The notes under the pieces: generated by a model | Databases searched by the model: none | Told to the model about the DNA's origin: nothing | The model's input: only the letters and a program-made list of their open reading frames with translations | NCBI RefSeq assembly: GCF_003569745.1 | Contig: NZ_AP018498.1 | Span: forward strand, 1,116,001-1,180,000 | Length of the DNA: 64,000 nt | DNA from: Altererythrobacter sp. B11 | Lineage (GTDB): Bacteria; Pseudomonadota; Alphaproteobacteria; Sphingomonadales; Sphingomonadaceae | Reading direction: 5' to 3' | Shown here: positions 10,199-41,983 of the stretch, piece by piece | Layout of the letters: each line of letters opens with the position of its first letter | How positions within the stretch are numbered: the first letter of the stretch is position 1 | Made by a program: the position numbers and the translations under genes

Positions 10199-10205
10199 CA
10201 GGGCC

Positions 10206-11336
10206 TCAGAGGCGCGGGGCCTGGCTGAAGTCCAGATCACGCGCGGTCACCACGCGGATCGGTTCGCCGGGGCGCACGCGTATGGTCGGGCTGATCTGGC
10301 CGTTCTGCTGCAGCGCGGTGGAGGCGGCGCTCTGTCCGCCGCCCAGCACCACGGAGGTGCCGCCGCTGGCGACCGCCGTCAGCCCGTCGATCACCGAAAG
10401 CAGCATGGCGGAGCCGAAGCGCTGGAAGAAATGCGAATCCACCTTGCCCGGCAGGCCGCCCGACCCGTCGAAGGCCGTTCCCGGCGAAGCGAGCGAGACG
10501 GAAACGCCATCGGGCCGGATCAGCCGGGTCCAGATCACATAGGCGCGCTTCTGCCCGGCCTGCAGCCCGCTCTGGTACTGGCCGATCAGGCGGCTGGACC
10601 GCGGCACCAGCACGCGGCGGCCGTCGAAGCTGCGCACGTCCTGGCTGACGACGGCGCGGACATAGCCGGGCACATCGGTGTTGATCGCGGTTTCCAGCAC
10701 CGCCGGAATCATCGTGCCGGTGGCGACGGTGGTGGCGGGATTGATGTCGCTGCGGGCCACGGCCGGGGCGCCGCCCACGCCGCCGATGCGCGCGGCGAAA
10801 TCGCCCGCGCCGCCGGCCCCGGCGGGTGCCGAGCCCGGTTGGGCAGGCACGGCCGCCTCCGGCGCCACGGCGGTTTGCGGCATGGCCGCGGTGCTCTGGT
10901 CGAACACCATGGCCGGGGACGCATAGGGATTATCCGCCGGTGCGCTCTGCACGCCGGGCGCGGTGGACAGCACCGGCGTGGGCGCGGGATCGGTGCGCGC
11001 GCCGGGCACGGCATTGGCCAGCGGCAGGTTTTCCTCGCCCGATTGCGCGGGGCTGGGGACATAGGCGGGCGCGGGCTGCGTAGCGGCAGGTGCCGCCTGT
11101 TCGCTATCCGCGGTGCGCGAGGCATTGAGGCCCCACAGCGTCGCGGCGCCGAGCACGGCGACGAAGCCGATGCCGAGCGCGAGGCCCACCGCATCGGAAC
11201 TGCCCTTGCGGGTCGCCACCGCCGGATAGGCGGTGCGGCTGGCGAGGTCGATCACCTCGGCGCTGGCTTCCTCGCGCGGGTCGCGATCCTCGCCCTGGCG
11301 GCGGGTCTTTTCCGGAAGACGCATGGCAAGTTTCAT
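10206..11336 (-). CDS. virB10: VirB10/TrbI-family inner/outer-membrane bridge protein
   Basis: 376 residues. A short cytoplasmic tail is followed by one TM segment (AVGLALGIGFVAVLGAATLWG), then a Pro/Ala-rich periplasmic linker (residues 80-200) and the conserved TrbI domain with VLETAINTDVPGYVRAVV, GRRVLVPRSSRLIGQY and AYVIWTRLIRPDG. VirB10 spans from the inner membrane to the outer-membrane pore and senses ATPase energy. The ATG at 11336 begins 4 bases after the virB9 stop; the longer frame upstream overlaps virB9 and is rejected. All conserved blocks of the C-terminal domain are visible, which suggests a functional channel component. Confidence 0.95.
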   Translation of the reverse strand: MKLAMRLPEKTRRQGEDRDPREEASAEVIDLASRTAYPAVATRKGSSDAVGLALGIGFVAVLGAATLWGLNASRTADSEQAAPAATQPAPAYVPSPAQSGEENLPLANAVPGARTDPAPTPVLSTAPGVQSAPADNPYASPAMVFDQSTAAMPQTAVAPEAAVPAQPGSAPAGAGGAGDFAARIGGVGGAPAVARSDINPATTVATGTMIPAVLETAINTDVPGYVRAVVSQDVRSFDGRRVLVPRSSRLIGQYQSGLQAGQKRAYVIWTRLIRPDGVSVSLASPGTAFDGSGGLPGKVDSHFFQRFGSAMLLSVIDGLTAVASGGTSVVLGGGQSAASTALQQNGQISPTIRVRPGEPIRVVTARDLDFSQAPRL

Positions 11337-25518: not shown

Positions 25519-27132
25519 TCAGAACAGCGCGTTCAGCACCAGGAAGCCGCCCGCGCCCAGCAGGCCGGCGGCCGGCACGGTGACGACCCAGGCCAGCGCG
25601 ATCGGCTTCATCAGCGCCCAGTTGGTCTGCCGGTTGACGATCCCGATACCGAGCACGGCGCCGATCAGGATGTGCGTGCTGGACACCGGGATGCCGAAGG
25701 TGGAGGCGAGCATGACCACCGCGGCGGCGGACAGCTCCGCGGAAAAGCCGGAGGCCGGGTGCATCTGCGTGAGCTCCTGGCCGACCGTGCGGATCACCTC
25801 CTTGCCGATGAACCACAGGCCGGCGATCAGCGCCACGCCGAAGGTGATCATGGCGACGCTGGGGATGGCGGCGGTGCTTTCCATCGTGCCGCTGCGCAGC
25901 ACGTCCATGATCGCGGCGAAGGGGCCGATGGCGTTGGCGATGTCGTTCGCGCCATGGCTGAAGGCGAAGCCGGCGGCGGTGAACACCTGCATCCAACTGA
26001 ACAGCAGGAAGGTCGAACGATCGAGCGATCCGTTGCGCAGCGAGCGCACGAACACGAAAGTCGCCATCCACGCGGCGGCGGCGATCATCGCCATGATCAG
26101 GTAATTGTGGAGGGTGGAGATCTCCAGATGCATGTTCTTCAGGCCCTTGAAGAGCAGCATGGAGGAGATGATCGCGGAGCCCGCCGCCGCCACCAGCGGC
26201 ACCCAGTTCTGCAAGGCCTTGTGCGCGGCGATGCTTTCGCGCCGGCGCTTGATCTCCACCAGTTCGCGGAAATAGTCGGACTCCAGCTCCTCGGGCGAGA
26301 AGTCCTCCTCGCGCAGGGCCACGCCGTCGCGCACCATGGTGTTGGTGTAGGAGATCTTCTGGATGTCGCTCAGCTTCTCGAAGGCGCTGCGGTGGCGTTC
26401 GTTCAGCTTGCGCCGTTCCTGCCGCAGCAATTGCAGCTGCTGCTTGGCGCGTTCGTTGTAGCCGAGGATGTGGGTCTTGATCTGGTAGTAGAGCAGATAG
26501 GACACGACCCCGCCCAGCAGCGGGGAAAGCACCCAGGACAGCACGATGGTGCCGATCTCGTCCCACTGCACCAGCGCCAGCGCCGCACCGCCGCCGCTCA
26601 GCAGCATGCCCAGCGCGATGGAGGCGCCGACGATCCCGCCGACGATGGAATGGGTGGTGGAGACGGGCCAGCCGTTGCGGCTGGCGAACAGCAGCCACAG
26701 CGCCGCCGAAAGCAGCGCCGCCATCATGATATAGACGAACTGCATCGGCTCGACCGCGGTGGCGGACAGATCGACGATGCCGCTGCGGATCGTGTCCGTC
26801 ACCTCGCCGCCCGCGATCACCGCACCGCTCACTTCGAACACCGCCGCGATCATCAGCGCCTGCTTGATCGACAGCGTGCCCGCGCCCACGCTGGTGCCGA
26901 AGGAATTGGCCACATCGTTGCCGCCGATGTTGAAGGCCATGAACACGCCGAACAGCGTGGCCAGCACGAACAGCATCACATGCGCGTGATTGGTGTAATC
27001 GAGGCCCCAGAACAGGAAATACCCGGTCATCCCCACGAACAGCACGCCGAAGCCAAGGCTGGTCCAGCTGAGCCCGAAGGGCAGCACCGGTGCGGCGGAG
27101 GGCTCGTCCGGAGACACGGATATGTCCTGCAT
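25519..27132 (-). CDS. Inorganic phosphate transporter, PiT family
   Basis: 537 residues from ATG 27132 (AGGAAC upstream). Both halves of the PiT signature are present: [19 protein letters not shown] near residue 65 and [18 protein letters not shown] near residue 390, together with two PVSTTH-type motifs ([13 protein letters not shown] and [13 protein letters not shown]). About ten TM segments surround a central charged cytoplasmic loop with a helical stretch ([19 protein letters not shown]). It imports phosphate, often as a metal-phosphate complex, driven by the proton gradient. It lies 142 bases downstream of the phosphonate operon on the same strand, which fits a common role in phosphorus supply. 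Confidence 0.95.
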
Positions 27133-27274: not shown

Positions 27275-28090
27275 TCAGGCCGGCGCGGGCTGGCCGATCG
27301 GCAATTCCGCCAGCGCCGCCGGCAGATCGGCGACGCTGTCGATCACCCGATGCGCGCCGGCCGCGCTCAGCCGCGCCCGCGCGGCGGCAAGGCGCGCCTC
27401 CCGCTCCGCCGCAGGCAGGGCGGCGAGATCGGCGGCCGAAAGCCCCAGCGCATTGCCGGTGGCGGCCACCGCCACGGTCCACAGGCCGGCATTGCGCCCT
27501 TCGGCCAGCCCCACCTCGGTATCGTCCACCTTCACGCAGGCACCCGCGGGCCAGGCGCCCAGCTCCACCAGGTTCTTCCACGCCATCAGCGGGGACGGCC
27601 GCCCCTCCGTCGTTTCCCCCGCACACACCACGCAATCGGGGCGATAGCCCTGCTCCGCCGCCAGGGGCAGGATCGCCGCCATCATCTCGCGCGTGTAGCC
27701 GGTGCAGGATCCGATCTTCACCCCCGCCTGCTGCAGCACCCCCGCCACCTCCGCCGCGCCGGGGATCAGCACGGCACAATCGCGCGCCGCTTCCGTCATG
27801 GCCGGCCCGATCCGGTCGAACAGCATCCGCGCATCGGTTTCGACCGGGGGCGCGCCGTGGGCCTCCGCCCATGCGGCGGCAATGCGCGGCTTGGCCAGCA
27901 GGCAGGCGATGTGATCCCACTTGGCGCGGCCCATATCCTCCTGCGCCTCCGCCTCGGTAATCGGCACCTCATGGTCGGCAAACAGCCGGCACAGCGCAAT
28001 CACCGGGGCGCGGCTGCCGAAATCGATCATCGTCCCGGCCCAGTCGAAGATCACGGCCTTGAGATTTGGGTGCACGATGCTGCCTTTCAT
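27275..28090 (-). CDS. phnX: Phosphonoacetaldehyde hydrolase (phosphonatase)
   Basis: 271 residues, HAD superfamily. The phosphonatase-specific motif is [13 protein letters not shown] (nucleophile Asp16, with Ala18 in the place of the usual second Asp). The Schiff-base lysine is in [10 protein letters not shown] (Lys57). Later motifs are [11 protein letters not shown] and [14 protein letters not shown]. It cleaves phosphonoacetaldehyde to acetaldehyde and phosphate in the cytoplasm, the last step of 2-aminoethylphosphonate breakdown. The usual partner aminotransferase PhnW is absent; the FAD oxidoreductase, whose stop overlaps this ATG, probably takes its place. It is the last gene of a five-gene overlapping operon. 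Confidence 0.93.
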
Positions 28091-29214
28091 GTCGGGAAGA
28101 GGGAGGAGAGGGTGTCTTCCGCCAGCGCGAAGGCCGTGGAAGCGCCGGTGCCACTGGTGACGACGACCAGCGTCACGCCGGGCAGCGGAGTGCGCCGGAT
28201 GCTGTGATCCGGCCCGCTGGCATAGGTGCCGGTCCAGCGTTCGATCACTGGCGGCGCGGCACCGAACAGCGCGGCATATTGCGCCAGCATGGCCTGATCC
28301 ACCGCGGCGGAGGCGAAGGGTTCGGGGGTGGCGGCATAGACATGGCTGTCCCCCAGCACGATCGATCCATCGGCGCTCTGCACGGCGATCAGATGGATGC
28401 CATAGCCCAGCGCCTCCGCCTCTTCCTGCTCCAGCCTTCGGCGCAGGGGCTCCGCCTCGGGCAGCTCGGCATAGCCGAGATAGCGGACCAGGCTGAGATC
28501 GCTCATCACCGGATGCGGCAGGCGCCAGCCCGGCGGGGCCAGCCGCAGCATCTGCAGCTGGCAGCGGGTGATGCCGGCATCGGCACAGGCGGCGGGGAAC
28601 AGGCCCGCCCAGTCATCGCCCGGGCAGGCGATCACCTGCCCCGCGGCGATGCGGCTGCCGTCCGCCAGCACCACCGCGCCGGGCTCCACCTCGCGCACTG
28701 CCTGGCCGCGCAGGAAGGTGACGCCGCGGCTTTCCTCCAGCCAGCGCGCCAGCAGCGGGATGGCGCTGCGCGATTCCACCCGCAGATCGGCGGTGGAAAG
28801 CAGAGCGGCAGCGGGCTGGCCGCGCAGCGCGGGGGCCAGTTGCCGTGCCTCCCGCCCGCTCAGCACGCGGCAGCCCTCACCCATCGGCGTATCCGCAAAG
28901 GCTTCGATCACCAGCGCCGCCTCCGCCCGCTGGGCCACCAGCAGCAGCCCTTCCTGCTCGATGGCGATGCCGGCCTGCGGCGCCACTTCCCGCCAGATGG
29001 CGGCGCTGCGGCGCGCCAGCTGCCACACGCGCCCGCTCTGCTGCCCGGTGACGGTGACGAAGCCGAAATTGCGGATGGAGGCGCCATTGGCCTGCGCATC
29101 CCGATCCACCACCGCCACGCGCAGCCCGCGCCGCGTGGCGGCCAGCGCATGGGCGAGGCCGACGATGCCCGCGCCTACGATGGCAAGGTCAAACTGCTGC
29201 GGCTGTGCGGACAT
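28087..29214 (-). CDS. FAD-dependent oxidoreductase of phosphonate-associated (TIGR03364-like) family
   Basis: 375 residues of the DAO fold: dinucleotide-binding FDLAIVGAGIVGLAHALA at the N-terminus, VAVVDRD at the end of the second strand, GASIRNFGFVT (covalent/near-flavin region) and C-terminal TSGTGASTAFALAED. Flavoproteins of this type recur beside phnX and are thought to oxidise 2-aminoethylphosphonate or its N-methyl or hydroxy forms to phosphonoacetaldehyde, releasing amine and peroxide. That role is from family knowledge and the substrate here is inferred. Its start lies 26 bases inside the end of the MFS gene and its stop overlaps phnX (ATGA), so it is tightly coupled to both. Confidence 0.85.
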   Translation of the reverse strand: MSAQPQQFDLAIVGAGIVGLAHALAATRRGLRVAVVDRDAQANGASIRNFGFVTVTGQQSGRVWQLARRSAAIWREVAPQAGIAIEQEGLLLVAQRAEAALVIEAFADTPMGEGCRVLSGREARQLAPALRGQPAAALLSTADLRVESRSAIPLLARWLEESRGVTFLRGQAVREVEPGAVVLADGSRIAAGQVIACPGDDWAGLFPAACADAGITRCQLQMLRLAPPGWRLPHPVMSDLSLVRYLGYAELPEAEPLRRRLEQEEAEALGYGIHLIAVQSADGSIVLGDSHVYAATPEPFASAAVDQAMLAQYAALFGAAPPVIERWTGTYASGPDHSIRRTPLPGVTLVVVTSGTGASTAFALAEDTLSSLFPT

Positions 29215-30538
29215 GATGCGTGCCAAGACGGAAGTGGAAATAGAGCGCCGAACAGATGGTGAGCAGCGCCACGGCGGCGGAGGCGACATAAGCCGCGTCG
29301 ATGTAGAAGGAGAGCCAGTCCATCCGCGCCGCGCCGAAGCTGCGATATAGCAGCAGCGCCACGCTGCCGACATAGCCGGAGCTGTCCGCCACATAGATCA
29401 GGAAGCCCGCATTGCCGGCATGGCCGATGGCGGCGATCATCCGGTCGAACAGCATGGCGTTGAACGGGGTATAAGCGAAATAGAGGCCCGCCCCGGTCAG
29501 GATCATATAGGGCAGCGGGTGCAGCAGGCCCATCTGGAAGGCCAGCGTGGAAAAGCCCAGCAGCAGCGCGCCCAGCAGGATGATGCCATGCATCGCCAGC
29601 AGCGCGCGCATATTGTCGCGGATCAGCATCAGCCCGCCCAGCGCCGCCAGCGCCACTGCGGCCACCGGCAATTCGCTGGCGGAAAAGACCGATGCGACGC
29701 CGCCATAACCCATCGCGCCCCACAGTTCGGCGGCGAAATTGTCGCGGAAGTCGCGGATCGCGGTCAGCAGCACATAGCCGGAAACCAGCAGCACCATGGC
29801 GAGGCCGTAATTGCGCAGGAAAGCCAGCCGCGCCGCGCGCAGCATGGGGACACGCACGGTCCGTTCCGCCTCGTCGCGTCTATCGGGGGCCGGCATGCGT
29901 TCCAGCAGGAACAGCGCCAGGAACAGCACGGGGAAGAACAGCGCGCCGGTGACGGCGGGCATCCACATCTCGCTGACGCCGCGGTCCATCACCAGCACCG
30001 CCACCGATTTCACCGCGCCGGAGGAGATGATGAAACTGGCGCAGAGCACCGCGCCCAGCGCTTCGGACACGCGGCGCCCTTCGATATAGCTGAACACCAG
30101 CCCCCAGATCATGCCCAGCGGCAGGCCGTTCAGGAACAGGCAGGCGATATTCCACGGCGCGGGGATCAGCGCGAACAGGATCAGCGCCAGCCAGGCCGTG
30201 CCGATCAGCGCCAGGATCGCCAGTCCGCGCCCCTGCCGGCCGAATTCCGCGATCACGCGGATGCCGATCAGCTTGGACAGGGCATAGCCCATGACCTGCG
30301 CGATCAGCAGCGCCGTCTTGTAATCAAGCCCGCCCAGCAGCGCCGGATGATCGGCAAAGGTCGCCGCCGCAAAGGGTTTGCGGAAGGCATACATGGCGAA
30401 ATAGGCGCTGAAGGCAGCAAGCCCGCCCAGCGCGATCATCAGGCTGCGCCGGACCGGTGCGGGCGGGGGCGCAAGTGCGGGAGACTCCACGATCACCTCT
30501 GGAACGGGGGTGGGGCTGAAGGCGGCGGGCGCGCTCAT
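29189..30538 (-). CDS. MFS permease, DUF5690-like, probable organophosphonate/phosphoester importer
   Basis: 449 residues, about 12 TM segments. It resembles the DUF5690 subgroup of major facilitators: AAFSAYFAMYAFRKPFAAATF at the start (quoted to 20), DYKTALLIAQVMGYALSK, LPLGMIWGLVFSYIEGRR, SEMWMPAVTGALFFP and FRDNFAAELWG. The N-terminal motif YFAMYAFRKPF is also like sugar-phosphate antiporters. Substrate is unknown; its position between a secreted phosphoesterase and cytoplasmic phosphonate enzymes suggests import of a released phospho- or phosphono-head group. Start ATG 30538 overlaps the stop of the metallophosphoesterase (ATGA). Confidence 0.82.
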   Translation of the reverse strand: MSAPAAFSPTPVPEVIVESPALAPPPAPVRRSLMIALGGLAAFSAYFAMYAFRKPFAAATFADHPALLGGLDYKTALLIAQVMGYALSKLIGIRVIAEFGRQGRGLAILALIGTAWLALILFALIPAPWNIACLFLNGLPLGMIWGLVFSYIEGRRVSEALGAVLCASFIISSGAVKSVAVLVMDRGVSEMWMPAVTGALFFPVLFLALFLLERMPAPDRRDEAERTVRVPMLRAARLAFLRNYGLAMVLLVSGYVLLTAIRDFRDNFAAELWGAMGYGGVASVFSASELPVAAVALAALGGLMLIRDNMRALLAMHGIILLGALLLGFSTLAFQMGLLHPLPYMILTGAGLYFAYTPFNAMLFDRMIAAIGHAGNAGFLIYVADSSGYVGSVALLLYRSFGAARMDWLSFYIDAAYVASAAVALLTICSALYFHFRLGTHHVRTAAAV

Positions 30539-32463
30539 CGGCGGGGCTCCGCACTTTCGCCGCCGGCCTCGCAGCGCCGGGCGGCGATCGCGTGCGGGGC
30601 CAGGGCGAAGCTGTCGCGCAGGCGGCCTTCGGCATCGCGCATCTCGATCTCCAGCCGGTCCTGCCACAGTCGCGCCAGCAGGAAATGGAAGCCGCTGTGC
30701 AGCGTGGCCGCGGTGGGGCTGGCGGCGGGGGCGGCCCGCTCGCTGTCGCCGCCGCCCCCGCCGCTGACGACATAGGTCACTCCGCCGCAGGCGGGCTTGC
30801 CCGCGCGCAGCGGCCAGGATCGCTCGTAGCCGTGGATATGGCCGGAAAGCGCGAGATCGACGCCGTGCCGCTCGTAAAGATCGACGAAATCGGCGCGGAT
30901 TTCAGGATCGCCGCCGGTGGTGGGGGCGGCATAGCCGTTGCCATAATCGTCGTCGTCGGAACTGTAGGCCGGCTGGTGGTGCAGGGCGATCTTCCACCTT
31001 GCGGTGGATGCGCCCAGCGCCTGATCCAGCCAGGCGCGCTGCGCCTTGCGGAAGCCGGGCTCCTGCCGCTCGCGCAGGGCCAGATTGCCGTCCAGCACGA
31101 AGAATTCGGCATCGCCGATGCGATAGGAATAATAGCCGCGGCCCTCGTCGGGCTGGTTGTGATAGCGATCGAAATTGGTGAACAGGCGCCGGTCCTGCGC
31201 GGGGTCCACCACATCCACATCGCCATTGCCGCGCACGGCGAGCGCGGGAACCCGCTCGACCAGCGGGCCCATGCCGGGGAAGAACTCGTCGGTCCAGTGC
31301 CAGCGCCGCTCGTCCTCCTCGCCGCCAACCAGATCGCCGGCGAGCACCACGAATTGCGGGCGCTGTTGCCAGATCAGCCGGCTGAGGCGGGCGTTGATGA
31401 AGGGCCGTTCCTGCGTGTCGCCCACCACCGCGAAGACCAGCGGCCTGCCCTCCGCCGGCATGGTGCGGAAGGCCAGCGTGCCGCTGTCCAGCACCTCGCC
31501 GGCGGCATCGCGTGCCGTGACGCCGTAGAAATACTTGGTCGCGGGGGCGAGGGCGGGCAGGGTGGCTCGGTGCAGCCGCGCGGCATCCGTGAATTCCAGC
31601 GCATGGCCGAAGGCTGCGGTCGGCCCCCATTCCACGCGGCCGGTGGCGGGGCGGTCCGTCTCCCACAGTAGCTTCTGCTCGCGCGTGCCCGGCGGCGTCA
31701 GATAGGGGCCGGCGGTGAAGCGCAGTTGCTTGCCCGTGCCGCGCGTGGCCGCCGCAATCTCGGCGGTGCGGGCGGCGAAGGCGGCCTGCGCCCCGGCGGC
31801 ATCTATCGCCTGCCCATGCAGCCATGCGCCGCGCAGCAGATTCGCCATGCGCATATGCGGCTCCGCGGCCAGATAGCCGGCCATATGCACCGCGCGGAAT
31901 GGTCGCGCTGCGCCCTCAGCCTCGGCCACCAGCACGCCGTTATGGAACAGCCGCCAGTGGTGCCCGTCGAAACTGCCCACGATATGATGCAGATAGCTGC
32001 GATAGGGGGCAAAGCGCGGCGCGGCGCGATCGGGCAGCCATTCCAGCGGGCCGAAGCGCAGCGCGGGATCGCCGGTGAACTTGCCGTTGCCCAGCAGGCT
32101 GAAATAGCCGAGCGTCCAGGCGGGCGCCCCATCGCCGTCTACCCCGGCGGCGAGCAGGCCCACCGGGTGGTTCACATGGTCCGCAAGCCATAGCTCCACG
32201 CTGAAGGGGCCGTCCGCCACTTCGGGCAGCGAGGCCCAGTCCTGCCGCACTTCGGAAGGGGGCTGGCCGAACAGCAGCGGCGGCGCCCAGGGCGCGGGGG
32301 CGATCATCGGCGGCGCCGGCGGGACGGCGGGCTCCTCCGGTATGTCAGGCGGGATCACCAGCGCATAGCTCGGATCCGGCCGCCACACGGCTTCGGGCGG
32401 GGATGCGCCGCCGGCCGCCAGCGCCAACAGCGCCAGTGCCGGCCGGCTGAGGCCCGGCGTCAC
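30535..32463 (-). CDS. Exported metallophosphoesterase with LamG-like and purple-acid-phosphatase-type domains
   Basis: 642 residues starting at GTG 32463, which overlaps the phospholipase stop (GTGA). A signal peptide is visible (LSRPALALLALAAGGAS). Residues about 70-220 look like a LamG/concanavalin-type sandwich (GPFSVELWLADH, YRSYLHHIVGSFDGHHWRLF). Then comes an FN3-like purple acid phosphatase N-domain (REQKLLWETDRPATGRVEWG) and the metal-binding domain: AVVGDTQ, LAGDLVGGEED, RGNGDVD, IALHHQPAYSS and SGHIHGYERSW. It should hydrolyse phosphoesters outside the cytoplasm. The usual GNHD is GNGD here. It likely removes phosphate from products of the upstream phospholipase. Confidence 0.88.
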   Translation of the reverse strand: MTPGLSRPALALLALAAGGASPPEAVWRPDPSYALVIPPDIPEEPAVPPAPPMIAPAPWAPPLLFGQPPSEVRQDWASLPEVADGPFSVELWLADHVNHPVGLLAAGVDGDGAPAWTLGYFSLLGNGKFTGDPALRFGPLEWLPDRAAPRFAPYRSYLHHIVGSFDGHHWRLFHNGVLVAEAEGAARPFRAVHMAGYLAAEPHMRMANLLRGAWLHGQAIDAAGAQAAFAARTAEIAAATRGTGKQLRFTAGPYLTPPGTREQKLLWETDRPATGRVEWGPTAAFGHALEFTDAARLHRATLPALAPATKYFYGVTARDAAGEVLDSGTLAFRTMPAEGRPLVFAVVGDTQERPFINARLSRLIWQQRPQFVVLAGDLVGGEEDERRWHWTDEFFPGMGPLVERVPALAVRGNGDVDVVDPAQDRRLFTNFDRYHNQPDEGRGYYSYRIGDAEFFVLDGNLALRERQEPGFRKAQRAWLDQALGASTARWKIALHHQPAYSSDDDDYGNGYAAPTTGGDPEIRADFVDLYERHGVDLALSGHIHGYERSWPLRAGKPACGGVTYVVSGGGGGDSERAAPAASPTAATLHSGFHFLLARLWQDRLEIEMRDAEGRLRDSFALAPHAIAARRCEAGGESAEPRR

Positions 32464-34607
32464 GCCAGCACGCGCATGGCGCCGATGCCCGGATCGGTCA
32501 GGCCGGGCCGGCCGTTCTCCACCTTGCCGGCGAAGCGGCGCAGGAAGCGCTCGTCGCCCGCCACGGTCACCGTCAGATCGTACCAGCCCTGGCTCGGGGC
32601 GAGCGGCCAGGCCAGGCTGGCGGACCTGCCCGGCGCCACGCGCATTTCGCGCTGCACCGGTTTGCCCCCGGCATAGGCCCCGTCCATCACCGCGACGAAG
32701 GTGATCCACTCGGCGCCATCGTTGCGCAGCTGGAGCGCCAGCGCCTGTTCCGCTTCGCGTTCGCGCATGTTGGCTTCGGCCGGAAGGCGATCGCTGCCGA
32801 GGGTGCCGGCATAGCGGCGCCAGTAGCCGTTCGGGCCGCGCAGGGTCATATCGTATGCCCAATCAATTGCACTGTCCGTCTGCCATGCTTGCGTGGCGTG
32901 TGCGTCGCCCGTGCCGAGGGTGAAATGCAACGGTTCCTCGCGGTCCAGATTGTCGTGCAGCGTCAGCGTCGCGCCCGTCAGGCCCTTGTTTTCCATGGTG
33001 ATTGTGAGGCGGCCATCGGCCCCCACCGCGGTTTGGGTGACCAGCCGATAGGGCAGCGGCCGATGCGGCCGGCGCCCCTCCATTTGCTCTCCAGGCTGTT
33101 GTTTTTGCGGGATTTCGTTCGCCTTCCCCGCATGCGAGGCGGCGACCCGGATGGCGAAATCCGCAGTATCCGGCAGCCCCAATTCCCCCAGCCCGGCAGT
33201 GGCACTGGCGAAGTCGAAAGCGGAGGTCAGATCGCCGCACACCGCCCGGCGCCAGTGGCTGATATTCTCCTCCCGCACCCCGAAGCGCCGCTCCATCAGC
33301 TGCAGGACCGAGGTGTGATCGAACAGTTCGGAGCAGACGAAGCCGCCCCGGCTCCACGGGGAAACCACCACCGCCGGCACTCTTATGCCGAGGCCGATCG
33401 GGTGCGGCCCGCGGACCTTCTTGGCCTCCGGCCCCCAGACCTTCGTCTCTCCGTCGATCGGGACGGTGGAATGGCCGCGGTAATCCCCCACCGGCGGCAC
33501 GGGCGGGGCCATATGGTCGTAGAACCCGCCCGCCTCGTCATAATTGAGGATGAAGGCGGTGCGCGCGAAGACCTCCGGATTGTCCACCAGCGCGGCGATC
33601 AGGCCGGCGGTGACATGCTCCCCCTTGGCGGGTTCCGCCTGCGGATGTTCGGACAGATCCGCCGCCGTGACGATCCAGCTGATCTGCGGCAGCTTGCCCG
33701 ATTCCACGTCCGACCGGAACGCCGCGACCAGCTGTTCGCCATCGGACCGGGTGCGATCGGCGCCCTCCTTGTGCTCGCTCACCCATGAGCGGCCCCGGCG
33801 ATAGAGCTCGGAATCCTCCGGGCAGGGGCGGAAGGCCGGGAAGACGGACAGCAGATTGTCGCCGAAATTGTCGTATTCCTGATAGACCTTCCAGCTTACC
33901 CCGGCCTTCTGCAGACGCTCGGCATAGGTGGACCATGTGTAGGCGTCCGGCCGCAGCGGCTGATCCGTGCGCATGTCGGCGCTCGGCGTCTCGTCCTCGC
34001 CGTAATTGTGCATTTGCGGATCGCCGCCGACCGTGCCGCCGCCGTTGCAGCCGGTGAACAGGTGCAGCCTGTTCGGATAGGTCTGCGTCATGGTGGAGCA
34101 GTGATAGGCGTCGCATACGGTGAAGGCGTCGGCCAGCGCGTAGTAGAAGGGCAGATCGCCCGCCGCATAATGCAGCATGCGGTTGTGCAGCTCGTCCGTG
34201 TGACCCCAGCGATCGTATCGCCCGCGGTTGAAGATCACCATGTTCTCCTGGTGCGACTGGTCGGCGCCATCGACCTTGAAGGAGCGGGTGGTCTTCGAAT
34301 CCCCGTGATAGGGCAGCACGTATCCGTCGGGATGCTGGCTGGAGGGCTGCGCCCAGACCGAGCGCCCGCCCGGCAGCCGCAGCGGGCGGGGATCGCCCAG
34401 CCCGCGCACGCCGTTGAGCCTGCCGAAATAGTGATCGAAGGAACGGTTCTCCTGCATGTGGACGACGATGTGGTCGATGTCGTTCAACGTGCCTGAGCGG
34501 CGGGCAGGGGCGATCGCCAGCGCGCGGCTGATGAGGTCCGGATAGAGCGAGGCGATCGCTGCGCCGCCGGTCAAGCCGAGGAAATTCCTGCGAGAGCCGC
34601 GAATCAT
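32460..34607 (-). CDS. Tat-exported phosphocholine-type phospholipase C
   Basis: 715 residues. The start MIRGSRRNFLGLTGG carries a twin-arginine signal. The phosphoesterase domain has the family motif MQENRSFDHYFGRLNG (residues 51-66), FNYD-like ILNYDEAGGFYDHMAPP and GIRVPAVVVSPWSRGG, and the C-terminus holds two domains of the bacterial PLC type (for example ITMENKGLTGATLTL and ARSASLAW-like RSASLAWPLAPSQGWYDL). This is the TIGR03396-like phosphocholine-specific phospholipase C family, which cleaves phosphatidylcholine or sphingomyelin. It is first in the operon, preceded by an operator-like palindrome at 34649. In this context it may also act on phosphonolipids; that is inference. Confidence 0.93.
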   Translation of the reverse strand: MIRGSRRNFLGLTGGAAIASLYPDLISRALAIAPARRSGTLNDIDHIVVHMQENRSFDHYFGRLNGVRGLGDPRPLRLPGGRSVWAQPSSQHPDGYVLPYHGDSKTTRSFKVDGADQSHQENMVIFNRGRYDRWGHTDELHNRMLHYAAGDLPFYYALADAFTVCDAYHCSTMTQTYPNRLHLFTGCNGGGTVGGDPQMHNYGEDETPSADMRTDQPLRPDAYTWSTYAERLQKAGVSWKVYQEYDNFGDNLLSVFPAFRPCPEDSELYRRGRSWVSEHKEGADRTRSDGEQLVAAFRSDVESGKLPQISWIVTAADLSEHPQAEPAKGEHVTAGLIAALVDNPEVFARTAFILNYDEAGGFYDHMAPPVPPVGDYRGHSTVPIDGETKVWGPEAKKVRGPHPIGLGIRVPAVVVSPWSRGGFVCSELFDHTSVLQLMERRFGVREENISHWRRAVCGDLTSAFDFASATAGLGELGLPDTADFAIRVAASHAGKANEIPQKQQPGEQMEGRRPHRPLPYRLVTQTAVGADGRLTITMENKGLTGATLTLHDNLDREEPLHFTLGTGDAHATQAWQTDSAIDWAYDMTLRGPNGYWRRYAGTLGSDRLPAEANMREREAEQALALQLRNDGAEWITFVAVMDGAYAGGKPVQREMRVAPGRSASLAWPLAPSQGWYDLTVTVAGDERFLRRFAGKVENGRPGLTDPGIGAMRVLA

Positions 34608-34648: not shown

Positions 34649-34664
34649 TTTGGTATAGTCCAAA
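34649..34664. promoter_or_regulatory. GntR/HutC-type operator candidate 1
   Basis: Perfect palindrome TTTGG-TATAGT-CCAAA in the divergent region between the phospholipase operon (starts 34607, minus) and the PhnZ-like gene (starts 34751, plus). The core TGGTATAGTCCA matches 11 of 12 bases of the core of site 2 at 35520 (read on the minus strand). Similar TGG-N6-CCA sites are used by HutC/DasR-type GntR regulators. Confidence 0.65.
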
Positions 34665-34750: not shown

Positions 34751-35302
34751 ATGATCGATTCCATCTTTGCCCTGTTCCGCCGCTTCGGGGAGGAACATTA
34801 CGGGGAGAATGCATCCCAGCTGCAGCATGCGTTGCAGTGCGCGCAGCTGGCGCGTGAGCACGGCTGTGCCGACAGCCTGGTGGCGGCGGCATTGCTGCAT
34901 GACGTGGGCCAGTTCCTCAACGACGCCGGCAATGCGGCGGTGAAGCTCAACCGCGACGCACGGCACGAGATCACCGGCGCCGCTTTCCTTGCGCGCGGCT
35001 TTCCTCGCGAGGTGACGGAGCCGGTGCGGCTGCATGTGGATGCGAAGCGCTATCTCTGCACCGTGCAGCGCGATTACGAAGCGGGGCTGAGCGAGGCGTC
35101 ACTGCTGAGCTATCGCCTTCAGGGCGGCCGCATGAGCGAGGAAGAGCTGGCTGCATTCCGCAATGAAGACTTCTTCGAGGAAGCACTGCTGCTGCGGCGC
35201 TTTGATGATTCCGGCAAGCGGCCGGATTGGGCGGTTCCCGGCCTGGAAAGCTACCGCGACCTGCTGCAATCGCTGCTGCTGGCCGATCATCCCGCCGCCT
35301 GA
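34751..35302 (+). CDS. PhnZ-like HD-domain mixed-valence di-iron oxygenase (TIGR03276-like)
   Basis: 183 residues. HD-type metal ligands are visible: YGENASQLQHALQCA (Tyr17, His26), LLHDVGQFL (His50-Asp51), HEITGAAFLARGFP (His near 71), LHVDAKRYL (His and Lys near 94-98) and a late Asp in RRFDDSGKRPD. This is the phosphonate-associated HDIG family that includes PhnZ, which oxidatively cleaves 1-hydroxy-2-aminoethylphosphonate to glycine and phosphate. No PhnY hydroxylase is encoded here. ATG 34751 gives the normal N-terminus (DSIFALFRRFGEEHYGE); an upstream TTG at 34694 is less likely. It is divergent from the phospholipase-phnX operon and shares its control region. Confidence 0.85.
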   Translation: MIDSIFALFRRFGEEHYGENASQLQHALQCAQLAREHGCADSLVAAALLHDVGQFLNDAGNAAVKLNRDARHEITGAAFLARGFPREVTEPVRLHVDAKRYLCTVQRDYEAGLSEASLLSYRLQGGRMSEEELAAFRNEDFFEEALLLRRFDDSGKRPDWAVPGLESYRDLLQSLLLADHPAA

Positions 35303-35519: not shown

Positions 35520-35537
35520 AACTGGCCTATACCAGTT
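35520..35537. promoter_or_regulatory. GntR/HutC-type operator candidate 2
   Basis: Perfect 6-bp arms AACTGG-CCTATA-CCAGTT. Read on the other strand the centre is TGGTATAGGCCA, one base different from site 1 at 34649. It lies 138 bases before the receptor ATG, where a repressor could block the promoter. The likely ligand is the GntR protein encoded at 38615. Confidence 0.68.
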
Positions 35538-35675: not shown

Positions 35676-38492
35676 ATGAAACGCCATGTCTCTTGCGCCG
35701 CGCTGAAGCGGCACCTTCTCCGCACTGCTGCGCTCGGCACGCTCGCTGTCGCCGGCACTGCGCATGCCGAAGCCGATGATGCGGCCACCGACGCCGACCA
35801 GATCGTGGTCACCGGCCAGAGGCTCAGCCGCGAAAGCGCGATCGCCGCCAAGAAAGAGGCCGACACCGTGATCGACGAGATCGCGGCGGATGATCTGGGC
35901 AAGCTGCCCGACGCCAACGTGGCCGATGCGCTGGCGCGGCTGCCGGGTGTGAACGTGGTCGTCAACCAGGATACTGGCGAGGGCGAATATGTCACCATCC
36001 GCGGCTTTTCCGGCACCTATAATGCTGTGACGATCAATGGCGTGCGCGTGGCGCAGACCGACCCTTCCAGCCGTGACGTGTCGCTCAGCGTGCTGCCTCC
36101 CAATGGGCTGGCCGCCATCCGCGTGACGAAGACGCTGACGCCCGACGTGGATGGGGATGCGATCGCTGGCGTGATCGATTTTCGCACGCCTACGGCCTTC
36201 GACTTCAACAAGCCCACGACGCTGCGCCTCTATGCCACGGGCGGGATCAATGGCCGCGCTCATTCCGCCGACGAGGATTCTGGCGTTTATCAGGGCCAGC
36301 TCGATTTCGCGCAGAAGTTCGGAGACGGGCAGTTCGGCATCTTCGCCTCGGTCAATTACGGCGTGACCCACGGCAACGCGCAGGAGACCGAGAACGACGG
36401 CGAGTGGGAGCCCTATGTTTGGCGGAAGAACTCGACCGAGACGATCTCCGAAGACAATATGCATTTGCCGGGCATCGACCTTGACTATCGCCGCGTGAAG
36501 CAGACCCGCTACGGCGGCAATATCTCGCTGGATTATCACGGGGATGCCACGCAGCTTTATCTCCGCGGCCAGTATGCGCGGCAGGAACTGCGCGGCACGA
36601 ACGATTACACCGACTACCGCAATCGTCCGACCGCGCGGCTCACCCAGGTGGACCCCGAAGACACCAGCCTGCTGCAGCCGGAAGACATGATCACCGGCAG
36701 CGATCCGACGCTGGGCAGTATCTACGGCTACACGACCGGACAGATCGTGGACGAGGATGGCGATGGCATCATTTCCGACGCCGATCGCAATTCCAGCAAA
36801 TATTGGTCGCTCAACGGCCGCTCTGGCGTGTGGAACCCGCAGGCGTTCCAGTTCGCTCGCAACTTTGGCACGATCGACGTGAACCAGACCCTCGCTACCG
36901 TCGAGTTTGGTGGTGAAAGCAAGATGGACGCGCTGACGCTGACCTACAGCGCCAGCTATTCGGGCGGCACGCGAGAGAACCCCGATGGCTACTCCGTCGG
37001 CTATAATTGCGACAAGTGCACCTTCCCGCTCGATGCCACGGGGATCGACTGGGTTTCCAGCGATCCGCGCTTCCCTCATGCGGGCATGCCGGCTTTCGCG
37101 GAGTTCGTGGAGCGCGACAGTTCGCTGCTCCCCTTCGATGGCGCGAGCCATGAGCGTTGGAAGCAGAAGGATGACCGGATCGCGTTGAAGCTGGACGCAC
37201 GCTACGACATGGATGGTGTGCTCAGCTATGTGCAGGCGGGCGCCAAATGGCTGCGCTCCAAGCGCGATTACGATTACACGCCGCTGTATGACGGCGATTT
37301 CGCCGGCACTCCGCTGGACGGTCTGAACCTGGAGGAATCGGGGCTGGTGGACAAGGAAGTCACCAGCATGCTGGGCGGCGAGTATTATTATGGCGACGTG
37401 TTCGATCGCGCCGCCGTGGTCGCCGCCATCCGCGCTGCGGAGGCGGCCAATGGCGGCGACGTCAGCGAAGAAGATCTCCTGCAGGACGACAAGAAGGGCA
37501 GCGAGAACGTCTATGCCGGTTATGCGCTGGCAAATTTCGACTGGGACGCCTTCCGCCTGATCGCCGGCGCCCGGCTGGAGCACCGCACCATCCACAACGA
37601 CTTCTGGGTGGACGACGGTGACGAGAGCGGCTTCGGCAGCAGCGATTCCAGCTACACGATCTTCCTGCCCAGCCTCACCGCCACCTACCGCCCGAGCAAC
37701 CGAGTGGCGATCCGCGGTGCCCTGTGGACCGGCTATTCCGCGCCGGAATATGGCAACATCTCTGGCGGCCAGAGCATCACTCGCGACCCCGTGACGGATG
37801 AAATTATCGCCATCAGCCAGGGCAATCCGGATCTGAAGCCGGCGAAGGCCTATAACGCCGATCTTTCGCTGGAATATTATCCCGATCCCACCAGCGTCGT
37901 ATCCGTCGCCGCCTACTACAAGCACATCAAGAACTTCATCTTCACCAACGGCAATCAGGTGGATGCGGCGACGACGATCGGGACGATCGAAATCACCCAG
38001 CCGAAGAATGGCGAGACGGCCAAGGTCTATGGCGTGGAGCTGAACCTGATCAAGGGGTTCGACGGGCTGGCTGCGCCCTTCGATGGCTTCGGCTTCGAAG
38101 GCAATCTGACGCTACAGCACAGCGAGGCGGAGAGCGGGCTGGACTATCGCGAGGGCGACAAGATGCGCCTCGTGAACACGCCGCATATCCTCTACAACGC
38201 GGCGCTGACCTTCCAGAAATATGGCTTCGAAGCGAAGCTGTCCTATAATTACCGCGGCAAGTTCATCGAAGACCTGCGGGACAATGCGGTGGACAAGTGG
38301 GTGCGGCCCAACCGCAGCCTCGATCTCCATACGCGCTACAATATCACCCCCAGCCTGGCGATGGACTTCGACGTGGGCAATTTGCTCAACGACTGGAAGT
38401 ACTACACCACCAAGGGCGACAATCCTTCGTACCAAAAGGACTATATGGAGCCGGGCCGCACCTATCTGATGCGCCTCAGCTACGTTTATTGA
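35676..38492 (+). CDS. TonB-dependent receptor, probable organophosphorus uptake
   Basis: 938 residues with a long signal peptide (RHLLRTAALGTLAVAGTAHA), a TonB-box-like DQIVVTGQRLS, and a plug with DDLGKLPDANVADALARLPG and NVVVNQDTGEGEYVTIRGFS, the pattern of large sphingomonad/Caulobacter receptors. The barrel ends YLMRLSYVY. The ATG at 35676 was chosen for the signal peptide and the GAGGG ribosome site; a GTG frame start at 35571 is only an extension. The ligand is unknown. The Pho-box and GntR-type sites upstream, the latter matching the phospholipase operon site, suggest a phosphorus-bearing compound such as a phospholipid head group or phosphonate. Confidence 0.9.
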   Translation: MKRHVSCAALKRHLLRTAALGTLAVAGTAHAEADDAATDADQIVVTGQRLSRESAIAAKKEADTVIDEIAADDLGKLPDANVADALARLPGVNVVVNQDTGEGEYVTIRGFSGTYNAVTINGVRVAQTDPSSRDVSLSVLPPNGLAAIRVTKTLTPDVDGDAIAGVIDFRTPTAFDFNKPTTLRLYATGGINGRAHSADEDSGVYQGQLDFAQKFGDGQFGIFASVNYGVTHGNAQETENDGEWEPYVWRKNSTETISEDNMHLPGIDLDYRRVKQTRYGGNISLDYHGDATQLYLRGQYARQELRGTNDYTDYRNRPTARLTQVDPEDTSLLQPEDMITGSDPTLGSIYGYTTGQIVDEDGDGIISDADRNSSKYWSLNGRSGVWNPQAFQFARNFGTIDVNQTLATVEFGGESKMDALTLTYSASYSGGTRENPDGYSVGYNCDKCTFPLDATGIDWVSSDPRFPHAGMPAFAEFVERDSSLLPFDGASHERWKQKDDRIALKLDARYDMDGVLSYVQAGAKWLRSKRDYDYTPLYDGDFAGTPLDGLNLEESGLVDKEVTSMLGGEYYYGDVFDRAAVVAAIRAAEAANGGDVSEEDLLQDDKKGSENVYAGYALANFDWDAFRLIAGARLEHRTIHNDFWVDDGDESGFGSSDSSYTIFLPSLTATYRPSNRVAIRGALWTGYSAPEYGNISGGQSITRDPVTDEIIAISQGNPDLKPAKAYNADLSLEYYPDPTSVVSVAAYYKHIKNFIFTNGNQVDAATTIGTIEITQPKNGETAKVYGVELNLIKGFDGLAAPFDGFGFEGNLTLQHSEAESGLDYREGDKMRLVNTPHILYNAALTFQKYGFEAKLSYNYRGKFIEDLRDNAVDKWVRPNRSLDLHTRYNITPSLAMDFDVGNLLNDWKYYTTKGDNPSYQKDYMEPGRTYLMRLSYVY

Positions 38493-39382: not shown

Positions 39383-39589
39383 CGCGGCGCGCCGGTGGCG
39401 GCGCATCACTCGGCACGCCGAGATTTCGGAACTCGCGCCGTCATGGCGAATTACAGCAACGGCAAGTGAGAAGCCCTGCGCTCGCTGTCGATCACCGGTG
39501 ACTGGTTCGAAGTCCTTGGCTTCGTCCCTTTCGATCGTGATCGCCACCCGTGCTCCGCCAGCCCGCCTGCGATGACAAGAGGATCCGTC

Positions 39590-41983
39590 ATGGATGATAT
39601 AGCCCCCCGCCGCCGCAGCTTTGCCGCAATGATCGTGGGGGCGCTCGTGGCTCTCATCGGCACCGTACTGACGATTGGGGGCGGGTGGCTCGTGATCCTC
39701 GACGGATCACCCTATTATCTGCTCGCTGGCCTGGCGATGCTCGCCTCCGGCATCCTCCTGTTTCGGCAGCGCCTGCTGGGCGGCTGGGTGTATATCGCAG
39801 TATTCGCCGCGACGGTAATCTGGGCCTTCTGGGAAGTGGGCGCCAACGGCTGGGCGCTGGTCCCGCGCCTGATCGCGCCGCTCGTCCTGCTGATCGCCGT
39901 GGTGCTCGTCATGCCGGCGCTCACCCTTGCTCATCGCCGCTGGACCTTTGCCTTTGGCGGGCTCGCCGCGGTGTTGCTGGTGTTCATCCTCGGCGGCGTG
40001 ATCATCGGCAAGGAGAACGAGCACGAAGTTCTGGCCGAACTCCCCGCAGAAGGCAGCGGCATGGCCGATCCTTCGCCCTTGCATGCGGATAGCGACTGGC
40101 CTGCCTATGGCGGCTCCTACGCCGCGCGCCGTTACACGCCGCTCAGCCAGATCACTCCCGCCAATGTCTCCAAGCTCGAGCGGGCGTGGCTGGTGCACAC
40201 GGGCGACATGCCTTCCTCCAAGGAGGTGGCGGGCAAGTATGGTGACGAGAACACGCCCCTGAAGGTGGGCGATACGCTGTATGTCTGCACGCCGAAGAAC
40301 TGGATTCTCGCGCTCGATCCCGCCACGGGCAGGCAGCGCTGGAAGTTCGATCCAAAGGTCCCGGACGCAGCGATTCCCTACACCGCCGCGTGCCGCGGGG
40401 TGAGCTATTACGAGGTGCCCGGAGCGGCCGGGGACGAGCCTTGCGCCCGGCGCATCATCTTCGGCACGCTGGACGCGCGGCTTTTCGCGCTGGACGCGGC
40501 AACCGGGCGCCCGTGCGAGGATTTCGGCACTAACGGGCAGGTGGATACGACAATCGGCATGGGCCAGACGCGGCCGGGCTATGTCTCGATCAATTCCCCG
40601 CCCACCATTGTCCATGGTGTCGTGGTGACCGGGCATCAGGTGCTCGACGGACAGGACCGGTGGGAGCCCTCGGGCGTGATCCGTGGCTTCGACGCCGTTA
40701 CCGGCAAGCTCGACTGGGCGTGGGACATGATGCACCCGGACTGGAATGGCTATCCGCCGCCGGGTGAGGAATGGGCGCGCGGCACCCCCAATATGTGGAC
40801 GATTGCGTCGGGTGACGAGGATCTCGGCCTCGTCTACCTCCCCATGGGCAACTCCGCAGCCGATTACTGGAGCGGCAAGCGCCGCCCGCCGGAGAACTTC
40901 TATGCCACCTCGCTCGTCGCGCTGGATGTGGACACCGGCAAGCCCCGCTGGCGCTTCCAGGCGGTGAAGAAGGATGTGTGGGATTACGATTTCGGCGCGC
41001 AGGCGACCCTGATCGACTACAAGGGTACGCCGGCGCTGGTGCTCCCTAGCAAGCAGGGCGACATCTACATCCTCGACCGTCGCACCGGGAAGCCACTGAC
41101 GCCCGTGGGCACGATCCGCGCCCCGATCGGAGGTGTGGAACCACAGGAGCGGGCAGAAACGCAGATCGTTTCGCGCTGGCAGACGCTGCGAAAGCCGGAC
41201 CTGACCGAACAGGACATGTGGGGCATGTCCCCGATCGACCAGATGATCTGCCGCATCCAGTTCCGCAAGGCGAGCTATGACGGCTTCTATACGCCTCCCA
41301 CGGCGGATCGGCATTCGATCGAATACCCGGGCTATAATGGCGGCACCGACTGGGGTGGTATCGCGGTGGACCCGCGCCGTGGGGTGATCGTGGCCAATTA
41401 CAATGACATGCCGAATTACGTGCGACTGGTTCCGCGCAAGAAGGCGGAGGAACTCGGCTGGGCGCCGCGTGGCGAGGCCCGGGGCGGGATCGGCGGAGCG
41501 GAAGGCGCGGGCGATCCACAGCTCAACACGCCCTATGCAATTGATGTGAACGCCGGATGGCGGCTGCCCCTCACGGGTATGTTGTGCAAGCAGCCGCCCT
41601 ATGGCGGGCTGCGGGCGATCGACATCGCAACCGGGAAAACGCTGTGGGATCGCCCGTTCGGCACGGCGCGCACCAACGGCCCGTTCGGCATTCCGTCCAT
41701 GCTCCCGCTGACGATCGGCACGCCGAACAATGGCGGGGCGGTGGTGACAGCCAGCGGCCTCATCTTCATCGCAGCGGCAACCGACAATCTTATCCGTGCG
41801 GTCGATCTCGCCACAGGCAAGACCCTCTGGACCGACAAGCTGCCGGCGGGCGGCCAGGCCACCCCCATGGTCTATCAGCAGAACGGGCGCGAATATCTGG
41901 TCATCGTGGCGGGCGGCCATCACTTCATGGAGACGCCGATTGGCGATGAGGTAATCGCCTATGCCCTGCCGCAGAGCGGGTGA
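39590..41983 (+). CDS. gcd: Membrane-bound PQQ-dependent glucose dehydrogenase
   Basis: 797 residues. About five N-terminal TM segments (residues 15-140; MIVGALVALIGTVLTIGGGW, LLAGLAMLASGILLF) anchor it in the inner membrane. The periplasmic eight-bladed propeller starts DWPAYGGSYAARRYTPLSQI and includes the PQQ/Ca site region (RRIIFGTLDARLFALDAATG, MHPDWNGYPPPG, PNNGGAVVTASGLIFIAAAT). It oxidises aldoses to lactones and passes electrons to ubiquinone; gluconate made this way also dissolves mineral phosphate. ATG 39590 has AAGAGG 7 bases upstream and is preferred to ATG 39572. No pqq biosynthesis genes lie in the window, so cofactor supply is elsewhere or external. Confidence 0.95.
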   Translation: MDDIAPRRRSFAAMIVGALVALIGTVLTIGGGWLVILDGSPYYLLAGLAMLASGILLFRQRLLGGWVYIAVFAATVIWAFWEVGANGWALVPRLIAPLVLLIAVVLVMPALTLAHRRWTFAFGGLAAVLLVFILGGVIIGKENEHEVLAELPAEGSGMADPSPLHADSDWPAYGGSYAARRYTPLSQITPANVSKLERAWLVHTGDMPSSKEVAGKYGDENTPLKVGDTLYVCTPKNWILALDPATGRQRWKFDPKVPDAAIPYTAACRGVSYYEVPGAAGDEPCARRIIFGTLDARLFALDAATGRPCEDFGTNGQVDTTIGMGQTRPGYVSINSPPTIVHGVVVTGHQVLDGQDRWEPSGVIRGFDAVTGKLDWAWDMMHPDWNGYPPPGEEWARGTPNMWTIASGDEDLGLVYLPMGNSAADYWSGKRRPPENFYATSLVALDVDTGKPRWRFQAVKKDVWDYDFGAQATLIDYKGTPALVLPSKQGDIYILDRRTGKPLTPVGTIRAPIGGVEPQERAETQIVSRWQTLRKPDLTEQDMWGMSPIDQMICRIQFRKASYDGFYTPPTADRHSIEYPGYNGGTDWGGIAVDPRRGVIVANYNDMPNYVRLVPRKKAEELGWAPRGEARGGIGGAEGAGDPQLNTPYAIDVNAGWRLPLTGMLCKQPPYGGLRAIDIATGKTLWDRPFGTARTNGPFGIPSMLPLTIGTPNNGGAVVTASGLIFIAAATDNLIRAVDLATGKTLWTDKLPAGGQATPMVYQQNGREYLVIVAGGHHFMETPIGDEVIAYALPQSG

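Follow-up and report, generated by a model that had tools for sequence, protein, structure and literature searches.

A phospholipase C gene within a putative PhnR-controlled aminophosphonate regulon of Altererythrobacter sp. B11

Results

Genes and operators of the locus

The 64,000-nucleotide stretch of Altererythrobacter sp. B11 analysed here (contig NZ_AP018498.1; hereafter the window, whose positions are used throughout) contains five overlapping minus-strand genes, from 34607 down to 27275, the first of which encodes a phospholipase C (PLC) and the last a phosphonatase, PhnX. A sequence-only reading of the window had given these genes and their junctions, and both are confirmed. Four genes of the locus were absent from that reading, i.e., an HD-domain oxygenase, a TonB-dependent receptor, a PhnR-like regulator and a Pit-type phosphate transporter. 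The features needed for the argument are the following (AEP, aminoethylphosphonate; FAD, flavin adenine dinucleotide).

32460-34607, minus strand: PLC; TIGR03396, 717 bits; twin-arginine-like start SRRNFLGL; member of a phnR-linked clade
30535-32463, minus strand: metallophosphoesterase; PF00149, 60 bits; GTG start; GTGA overlap with the PLC gene
29189-30538, minus strand: DUF5690 transporter; PF18943, 510 bits; ATGA overlap with the metallophosphoesterase gene; candidate aminophosphonate:phosphate exchanger
28087-29214, minus strand: PbfD-like FAD oxidoreductase; TIGR03364; 26-base overlap with the DUF5690 gene; predicted to convert AEP and N-methyl-AEP to phosphonoacetaldehyde
27275-28090, minus strand: PhnX, phosphonoacetaldehyde hydrolase; TIGR01422; ATGA overlap with the flavoprotein gene
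34650-34663: PhnR-type operator TTGGTATAGTCCAA, palindrome TGGTATAGTCCA, between the divergent PLC and HD genes; matrix score 20.6
34751-35302, plus strand: HD-domain oxygenase of the PhnZ/TmpB superfamily; TIGR03276, 197 bits; divergent from the PLC gene
35522-35535: second PhnR-type operator CTGGCCTATACCAG (TGGCCTATACCA), upstream of the TonB receptor gene; matrix score 17.0
35676-38492, plus strand: TonB-dependent receptor; TIGR01782, 581 bits
38615-39382, plus strand: GntR/UTRA regulator of PhnR type; TIGR03337, 249 bits; PF07702 and PF00392 both recognized

The operator and the genes it precedes

The operator matrix derives from 10 sites in five loci, none of them in the window. Its two best scores in the window are the PLC/HD operator and then the receptor operator. 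Genome-wide, the operator pattern is found at 20 sites (7 for the reversed pattern), among which the PLC/HD operator ranks highest and the receptor operator fourth. Seven of the 20 score at least 15; beyond the two of the window, four are inside open reading frames and the fifth, between genes, has no clear target, so the regulon is not extended to other genes. The mycobacterial PhnF operator is probably very similar to TGGTATAGTCCA; the string itself was not found in the open-access papers examined.

The matrix was applied to 78 test loci, i.e., 80 loci fetched with DUF5690 (numbered L below) minus two that repeat training genomes; several end at contig ends. Other fetched loci are also numbered L. 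Among the 78 test loci, a PhnR gene is in view in 28 and not in the other 50. When PhnR is in view, the operator stands upstream of 20/20 PLCs of the window's clade, 21/24 HD, 23/28 DUF5690 and 12/27 PhnR genes, of the receptors (7/13 of one type and 3/7 of another), and of 2/2 PI-PLC, 1/2 metallophosphoesterase and 1/4 other PLC genes. When it is not, the values fall to 1/49 for DUF5690, 0/9 for HD, 0/3 for other PLC and 0/4 for receptor genes. Expressed as site density, loci with PhnR have 2.19 sites per kb upstream of regulon genes vs. 0.022 elsewhere, and loci without it 0.055 upstream of the same genes vs. 0.007 elsewhere. With 200 column-permuted matrices, the mean number of upstream hits in PhnR-bearing loci is 0.6 and the five highest values are 4, 4, 23, 29 and 40, against 65 for the real matrix. 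Co-regulation of the lipase and phosphonate genes by a PhnR-type operator is well supported by these sequence comparisons.

The regulator scores 249.4 bits against the PhnR model TIGR03337 (cut-off 296.75), the best-scoring model in the list, and its GntR and UTRA domains match their Pfam models (PF00392 and PF07702). It is of the same GntR/UTRA repressor type as PhnR and PhnF, from which it differs by its score below the TIGR03337 cut-off and by an operator that also precedes lipase and phosphatase genes. Binding sites within a bidirectional promoter are described for PhnF (PMC7866108).

The receptor-upstream operator is also present in L066, L067 and L070. Relatives of the TonB receptor occur in 11 of 21 loci with a PLC of the window's clade, some of them merely 28-46% identical. 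A tetratricopeptide repeat (TPR) protein ending in a Sulfotransfer_3 domain often accompanies the TonB receptors of L046 (12699-17601), L047, L192 and many of L066-L145.

A distinct clade of phospholipases C

The window PLC matches TIGR03396 (phosphocholine-specific PLC) over residues 5-708 of 715, with 717.2 bits for a cut-off of 580.25. In a tree of 66 distinct PLC sequences, taken from the fetched loci and from a survey of Sphingomonadales genomes (see below), it falls in a clade of 27 with an SH-aLRT support of 100. An operator lies 35-91 bp upstream of all 27 PLCs of this clade, with scores down to 15.9; three of these sites belong to the training set. Outside the clade, only 4 of 39 have a site scoring at least 15, all in one small second clade, and 35 have none. 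The clade is also marked by residues Q117, F347 and G360 (27/27), the corresponding positions being H, W and D in the 39 other PLCs. Compared with the bacterial phosphocholine-specific PLCs (solved relatives 9gy2, 9gye and 8yk5), the window PLC is a full-length TIGR03396 protein keeping the residues common to all 66 PLCs; it differs by its separate clade and by the three residues just given, at positions where the 39 others do not vary.

These results bear on a first alternative, general scavenging of lipid phosphorus, in which PLC and phosphatase use ordinary phosphatidylcholine or phosphatidylethanolamine while PbfD, PhnX and HD serve free aminophosphonates, the regulator being shared only because all of them supply phosphorus. 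The assignment to a phosphocholine-specific family speaks for it, as does the phosphatase beside the lipase (a metallophosphoesterase here, PAP2 in others). However, the operator occurs together with a GntR gene of phosphonate type and is missing upstream of most PLCs outside the clade. We hold this alternative to be unlikely, though deserving of real weight.

Hosts of clade PLCs are Sphingomonadales, Caulobacteraceae and Acetobacteraceae, and their gene orders differ. Partners were counted in the 21 named loci, out of the 80, that contain a clade PLC (DUF5690 is present in all 21 by construction of the search): PhnR is found in 21, HD in 19, the flavoprotein in 16 and PhnX in 15. In 16 of the 21, PLC and HD lie side by side in divergent orientation; in 9, PLC precedes DUF5690 on the same strand, either directly or across a single unqueried gene. 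Among the six loci without PhnX in view, L068, L102 and L120 have PhnX elsewhere in the genome, L066 is at a contig end, and the two Gluconacetobacter genomes (L099, L118) have no PhnX match. The clade PLC travels more steadily with PhnR and the HD oxygenase than with PhnX, and the expectation that phnX would be its constant partner has to be abandoned. Moreover, four survey genomes hold a clade PLC away from phnX (L197-L200); all four PLCs keep the operator, and the 20 kb stretches contain PhnR in L197, L198 and L200 and HD in L197, L199 and L200.

The grouping of PLC, importer and phosphonatase, proposed from the window alone, is recurrent in other genera and families, with the PLC under the operator of a phosphonate-type regulator. 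As for gene order, it is the PLC-phosphonate association that recurs; among the loci examined, none but this one showed all five genes, metallophosphoesterase included, in exactly this order. This last point would fit a PLC brought beside a phosphonate operon by chance or hitchhiking. Such an origin is very improbable, since the clade PLC is present in 21 of 80 DUF5690 loci with a rearranged order and a conserved operator.

Genes for PI-PLC-C1 (PF16670) join operator-bearing loci: L036 (13821-15317), L071 (19223-20290), L138, L198 and L201, some with a PAP2 phosphatase.

Survey of Sphingomonadales genomes

The survey covers 396 genomes (numbered G), of which 15 have PhnX, 22 DUF5690 over the cut-off and 33 a TIGR03396 match. 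DUF5690 is found in 13/15 genomes with PhnX vs. 9/381 without (Fisher p 6e-17, a test ignoring kinship), and within about 10 kb of PhnX in 12 of the 15. The clade PLC is found in 8/15 vs. 0/381 (Fisher p 4.6e-13, with the same disregard of kinship); this restriction to PhnX-bearing genomes is a further argument against general scavenging. It must be noted that scoring was limited to two PLC candidates in each genome, so copies may be missed (the third of G146 is known just from locus L032). Of the 44 survey PLC matches, 39 are in the tree, the window's included; the other five, which are weak matches, truncated or broken in frame, were assigned by tblastn alone; each is closer to PLCs from outside the clade, and none has an operator in its stretch. 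G171 and G273 have a more distant PhnX (44-45% identity) and none of the other queried genes within 20 kb.

Phosphonate catabolic enzymes

The flavoprotein scores 394.5 bits against TIGR03364 (cut-off 285.1), the type named in the sequence-only reading. That assignment holds, and can be made more precise: PbfD1 of A. baumannii carries the TIGR03364 annotation (PMC10590968), and the window flavoprotein is best read, through this shared annotation, as a PbfD, i.e., an enzyme type already characterized. PbfD enzymes oxidize AEP and N-methyl-AEP to phosphonoacetaldehyde, from which PhnX then gives phosphate, and most PbfD genes outside the PbfD1 group have only phnX in their vicinity (PMC10590968). 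The window resembles this pathway by a TIGR03364-type flavoprotein gene adjoining phnX without phnW. It differs by the additional lipase, phosphatase, DUF5690 and HD genes; the main text of PMC10590968 does not contain the word phospholipase. PhnX itself scores 334.9 bits against TIGR01422 (cut-off 220) and is the single copy over the cut-off in the genome.

The window genome has no PhnW over the cut-off, no PhnJ match and no phosphoenolpyruvate (PEP) mutase match. The evident route for AEP is therefore PbfD-PhnX, and the cell would not itself be the maker of a phosphonolipid. Turnover of an endogenous phosphonolipid was dropped as a candidate on the same PEP mutase result.

The HD oxygenase scores 196.9 bits against TIGR03276 (cut-off 214.6) and 163.8 against the TmpB equivalog (cut-off 300); its solved relatives are TmpB 6npa and PhnZ 4mlm. 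It has in common with the TmpA-TmpB and PhnY-PhnZ pathways an HD-domain diiron-type oxygenase, and differs by having no adjacent 2-oxoglutarate hydroxylase and by lying outside the TmpA-linked clade. An identification as TmpB was rejected, because the protein is outside that clade and the genome has no TmpA: none of its four TauD proteins is TmpA. More generally, TmpA is absent from 18/18 tested clade-PLC genomes and was found in both positive controls. There is no convincing PhnY in the window genome; of two PhyH proteins elsewhere, one is an ectoine hydroxylase and the other, unassigned, might be a PhnY. Given the missing TmpA and the lack of a convincing PhnY, the HD oxygenase would act on (R)-1-hydroxy-AEP directly; without a hydroxylase partner it can act if (R)-hydroxy-AEP is supplied. 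The specificity of PhnZ is for (R)-alpha-hydroxyphosphonates (PMC10574752). Pairwise alignment had pointed to a Tyr-to-His change in the active site of the HD protein; this was rejected, the multiple alignment having instead a gap of one residue next to a conserved Tyr.

Lipid- or glycan-bound forms of such head groups are documented: N-methyl-AEP occurs in sphingophosphonolipids (PMC10590968), and hydroxy-AEP is reported from a Bdellovibrio stolpii lipid and an Acanthamoeba polysaccharide (PMC8154272).

The DUF5690 transporter

The context of DUF5690 was counted in the 80 fetched loci. FAD oxidoreductase and PhnX are both in view in 44 of them (one of which also has a TmpA-like gene), four have a TmpA-like gene without PhnX, and 61 show at least one of FAD, PhnX, HD, PhnR and TauD. 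In L096, L104, L119 and L142 (DUF5690 near 10001-11320), DUF5690 is followed by TmpA-like and HD (TmpB-like) genes; in L096 the TmpA-like gene encodes a true TmpA (532 bits against a cut-off of 400), and the TmpA of the L104 genome was also checked. These neighbours suggest that DUF5690 also imports trimethylaminoethylphosphonate.

For an AlphaFold2 model of DUF5690 (mean predicted confidence, pLDDT, 90.8), the first four solved matches are human G6PT/SLC37A4, with template modelling (TM) scores of 0.63-0.68. By sequence, the DUF5690 profile has no match among solved chains up to E 10. An hhalign comparison with GlpT/UhpT/UhpC gives p 0.0024 with a probability of just 12%, and places R53-K54 and K89 on R45-K46 and K80 of GlpT, residues with presumed functional roles; the LacY control gives p 0.68, and GlpT or UhpC taken alone give 0.08 and 0.32. 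Across 45 sequences, R53 and K89 do not vary and K54 hardly does.

A precedent for GlpT-like transport in AEP use is the permease AepP (PMC8316502). The likeness is that of a major-facilitator importer related to organophosphate:phosphate antiporters and serving AEP use; DUF5690 is a separate Pfam family. No mention of DUF5690 was found in the open-access literature searched.

Other neighbours were noted. In L041 (9279-14279), L078, L101 and L114, DUF5690 is followed by the ethanolamine ammonia-lyase EutB, with no queried phosphonate gene in view; in L041, EutC and an ethanolamine permease are beside EutB as well. In L031 (10600-11970), DUF5690 adjoins a PhoX-type alkaline phosphatase. For general scavenging, it counts that DUF5690 adjoins EutB in 3/80 loci, which would fit ethanolamine-type head groups.

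An exchangeable phosphatase

The metallophosphoesterase has a hydrophobic N-terminus, is likely exported, and contains weak LamG-like and purple-acid-phosphatase-N-like regions, both below the cut-off. A relative with 42% identity in L070 has its own operator 68 bp upstream; a relative in L144 has none. The slot between PLC and DUF5690 holds a PAP2-family phosphatase in L069, L072, L079, L081 and L093, and is too short for a phosphatase gene in L066, L067 and L075. PAP2 genes also adjoin PLC or PI-PLC in L197, L198, L199 and L201. Different phosphatases in one slot suggest that phosphate monoesters released by the lipase are used too, so that the regulon may handle mixed lipids.

Neighbouring genes

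25519-27132, minus strand: Pit-type phosphate transporter; PF01384, 357 bits; downstream of PhnX

The Pit-type transporter could import phosphate released outside the cell. The Pit family has no match in the related loci scanned, and membership of this gene in the regulon is not claimed. Directly downstream of the PhnR-like gene lies a membrane-bound pyrroloquinoline quinone (PQQ) glucose-type dehydrogenase (39572-41983).

Discussion

The reading that we find rather probable is that the locus is the core of a PhnR-controlled regulon which sets aminophosphonate head groups free from phosphonolipids, takes them up and liberates their phosphate. The proposed course of events is as follows: (i) a phosphonate signal would lift repression by the PhnR-like GntR protein at the two operators, which were recognized by sequence comparison, ligand and binding being presumed; (ii) the exported PLC would cleave the ester bond facing glycerol or ceramide, setting the head group free; (iii) the exported phosphatase would strip phosphate from ordinary phosphate-ester head groups arriving alongside; (iv) aminophosphonates, proof against phosphatases, would enter via DUF5690, probably in exchange for phosphate, as its fold and neighbours suggest; (v) the PbfD-like enzyme, judged by family, would oxidize AEP and N-methyl-AEP to phosphonoacetaldehyde, from which PhnX would release phosphate; (vi) the HD oxygenase may handle a (R)-1-hydroxy-AEP head group directly. 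The specificity of the PLC for phosphonolipids is inferred from its regulation and gene company.

Several observations weigh against this regulon for phosphonolipids. The PLC family is named for phosphocholine lipids, and the targets of the operon phosphatase are P-O-C esters, which free aminophosphonates lack. The four operator-bearing PLCs outside the clade keep the usual H, W and D residues, so the residues of the clade need not mean phosphonate specificity. The PhnR-like and HD proteins are below the curated cut-offs of their closest models. Seven of the 15 PhnX genomes of the order showed no clade PLC, and 19 of the 80 DUF5690 loci show none of FAD, PhnX, HD, PhnR and TauD. Lastly, the fold rank of DUF5690 is not exclusive, sialin (TM 0.62) and the galactonate carrier DgoT (TM 0.66) being close.

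The substrate might also be a surface phosphonoglycan of protists, e.g., Acanthamoeba, released from membranes by PLC or PI-PLC and imported as a glycan by the TonB receptor. In L071, L076 and L138 the operator is just upstream of PI-PLC-C1, and in L198 and L201 it is close to the 5' end of the PI-PLC-C1 match; the operator counts of the receptor genes given above point the same way. The Acanthamoeba polysaccharide mentioned above contains AEP as well as hydroxy-AEP (PMC8154272), and the lipophosphonoglycan of this organism is of the glycosylphosphatidylinositol (GPI) kind (PMC3964302). However, neither the five-gene operon nor its divergent partner includes a PI-PLC, and receptor substrates are unreadable from sequence; we consider a glycan target improbable.

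A broader version of the phosphonolipid regulon can be put forward only tentatively, our confidence in it being below even. Here a phosphonolipid PLC clade, PI-PLCs and exchangeable phosphatases under PhnR would let alphaproteobacteria draw on protists and predatory bacteria for phosphonolipids and phosphonoglycans as food; DUF5690 would be a new family of aminophosphonate:phosphate antiporters, and the partnerless HD oxygenase would take hydroxy-AEP.

No description of a lipase-linked phosphonate cluster of this kind was found in the open-access literature searched. Phosphonates are built into lipids and glycans (PMC8316502), and the catabolic clusters in the literature examined start from a free small molecule; a regulon joining a lipase to C-P cleavage would supply the missing first step. 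If the phosphonolipid reading is true, DUF5690 gains a testable role, marker genes become available for phosphonolipid use in genomes and metagenomes, and the bacterium would feed on unusual phosphonate lipids made by other organisms.

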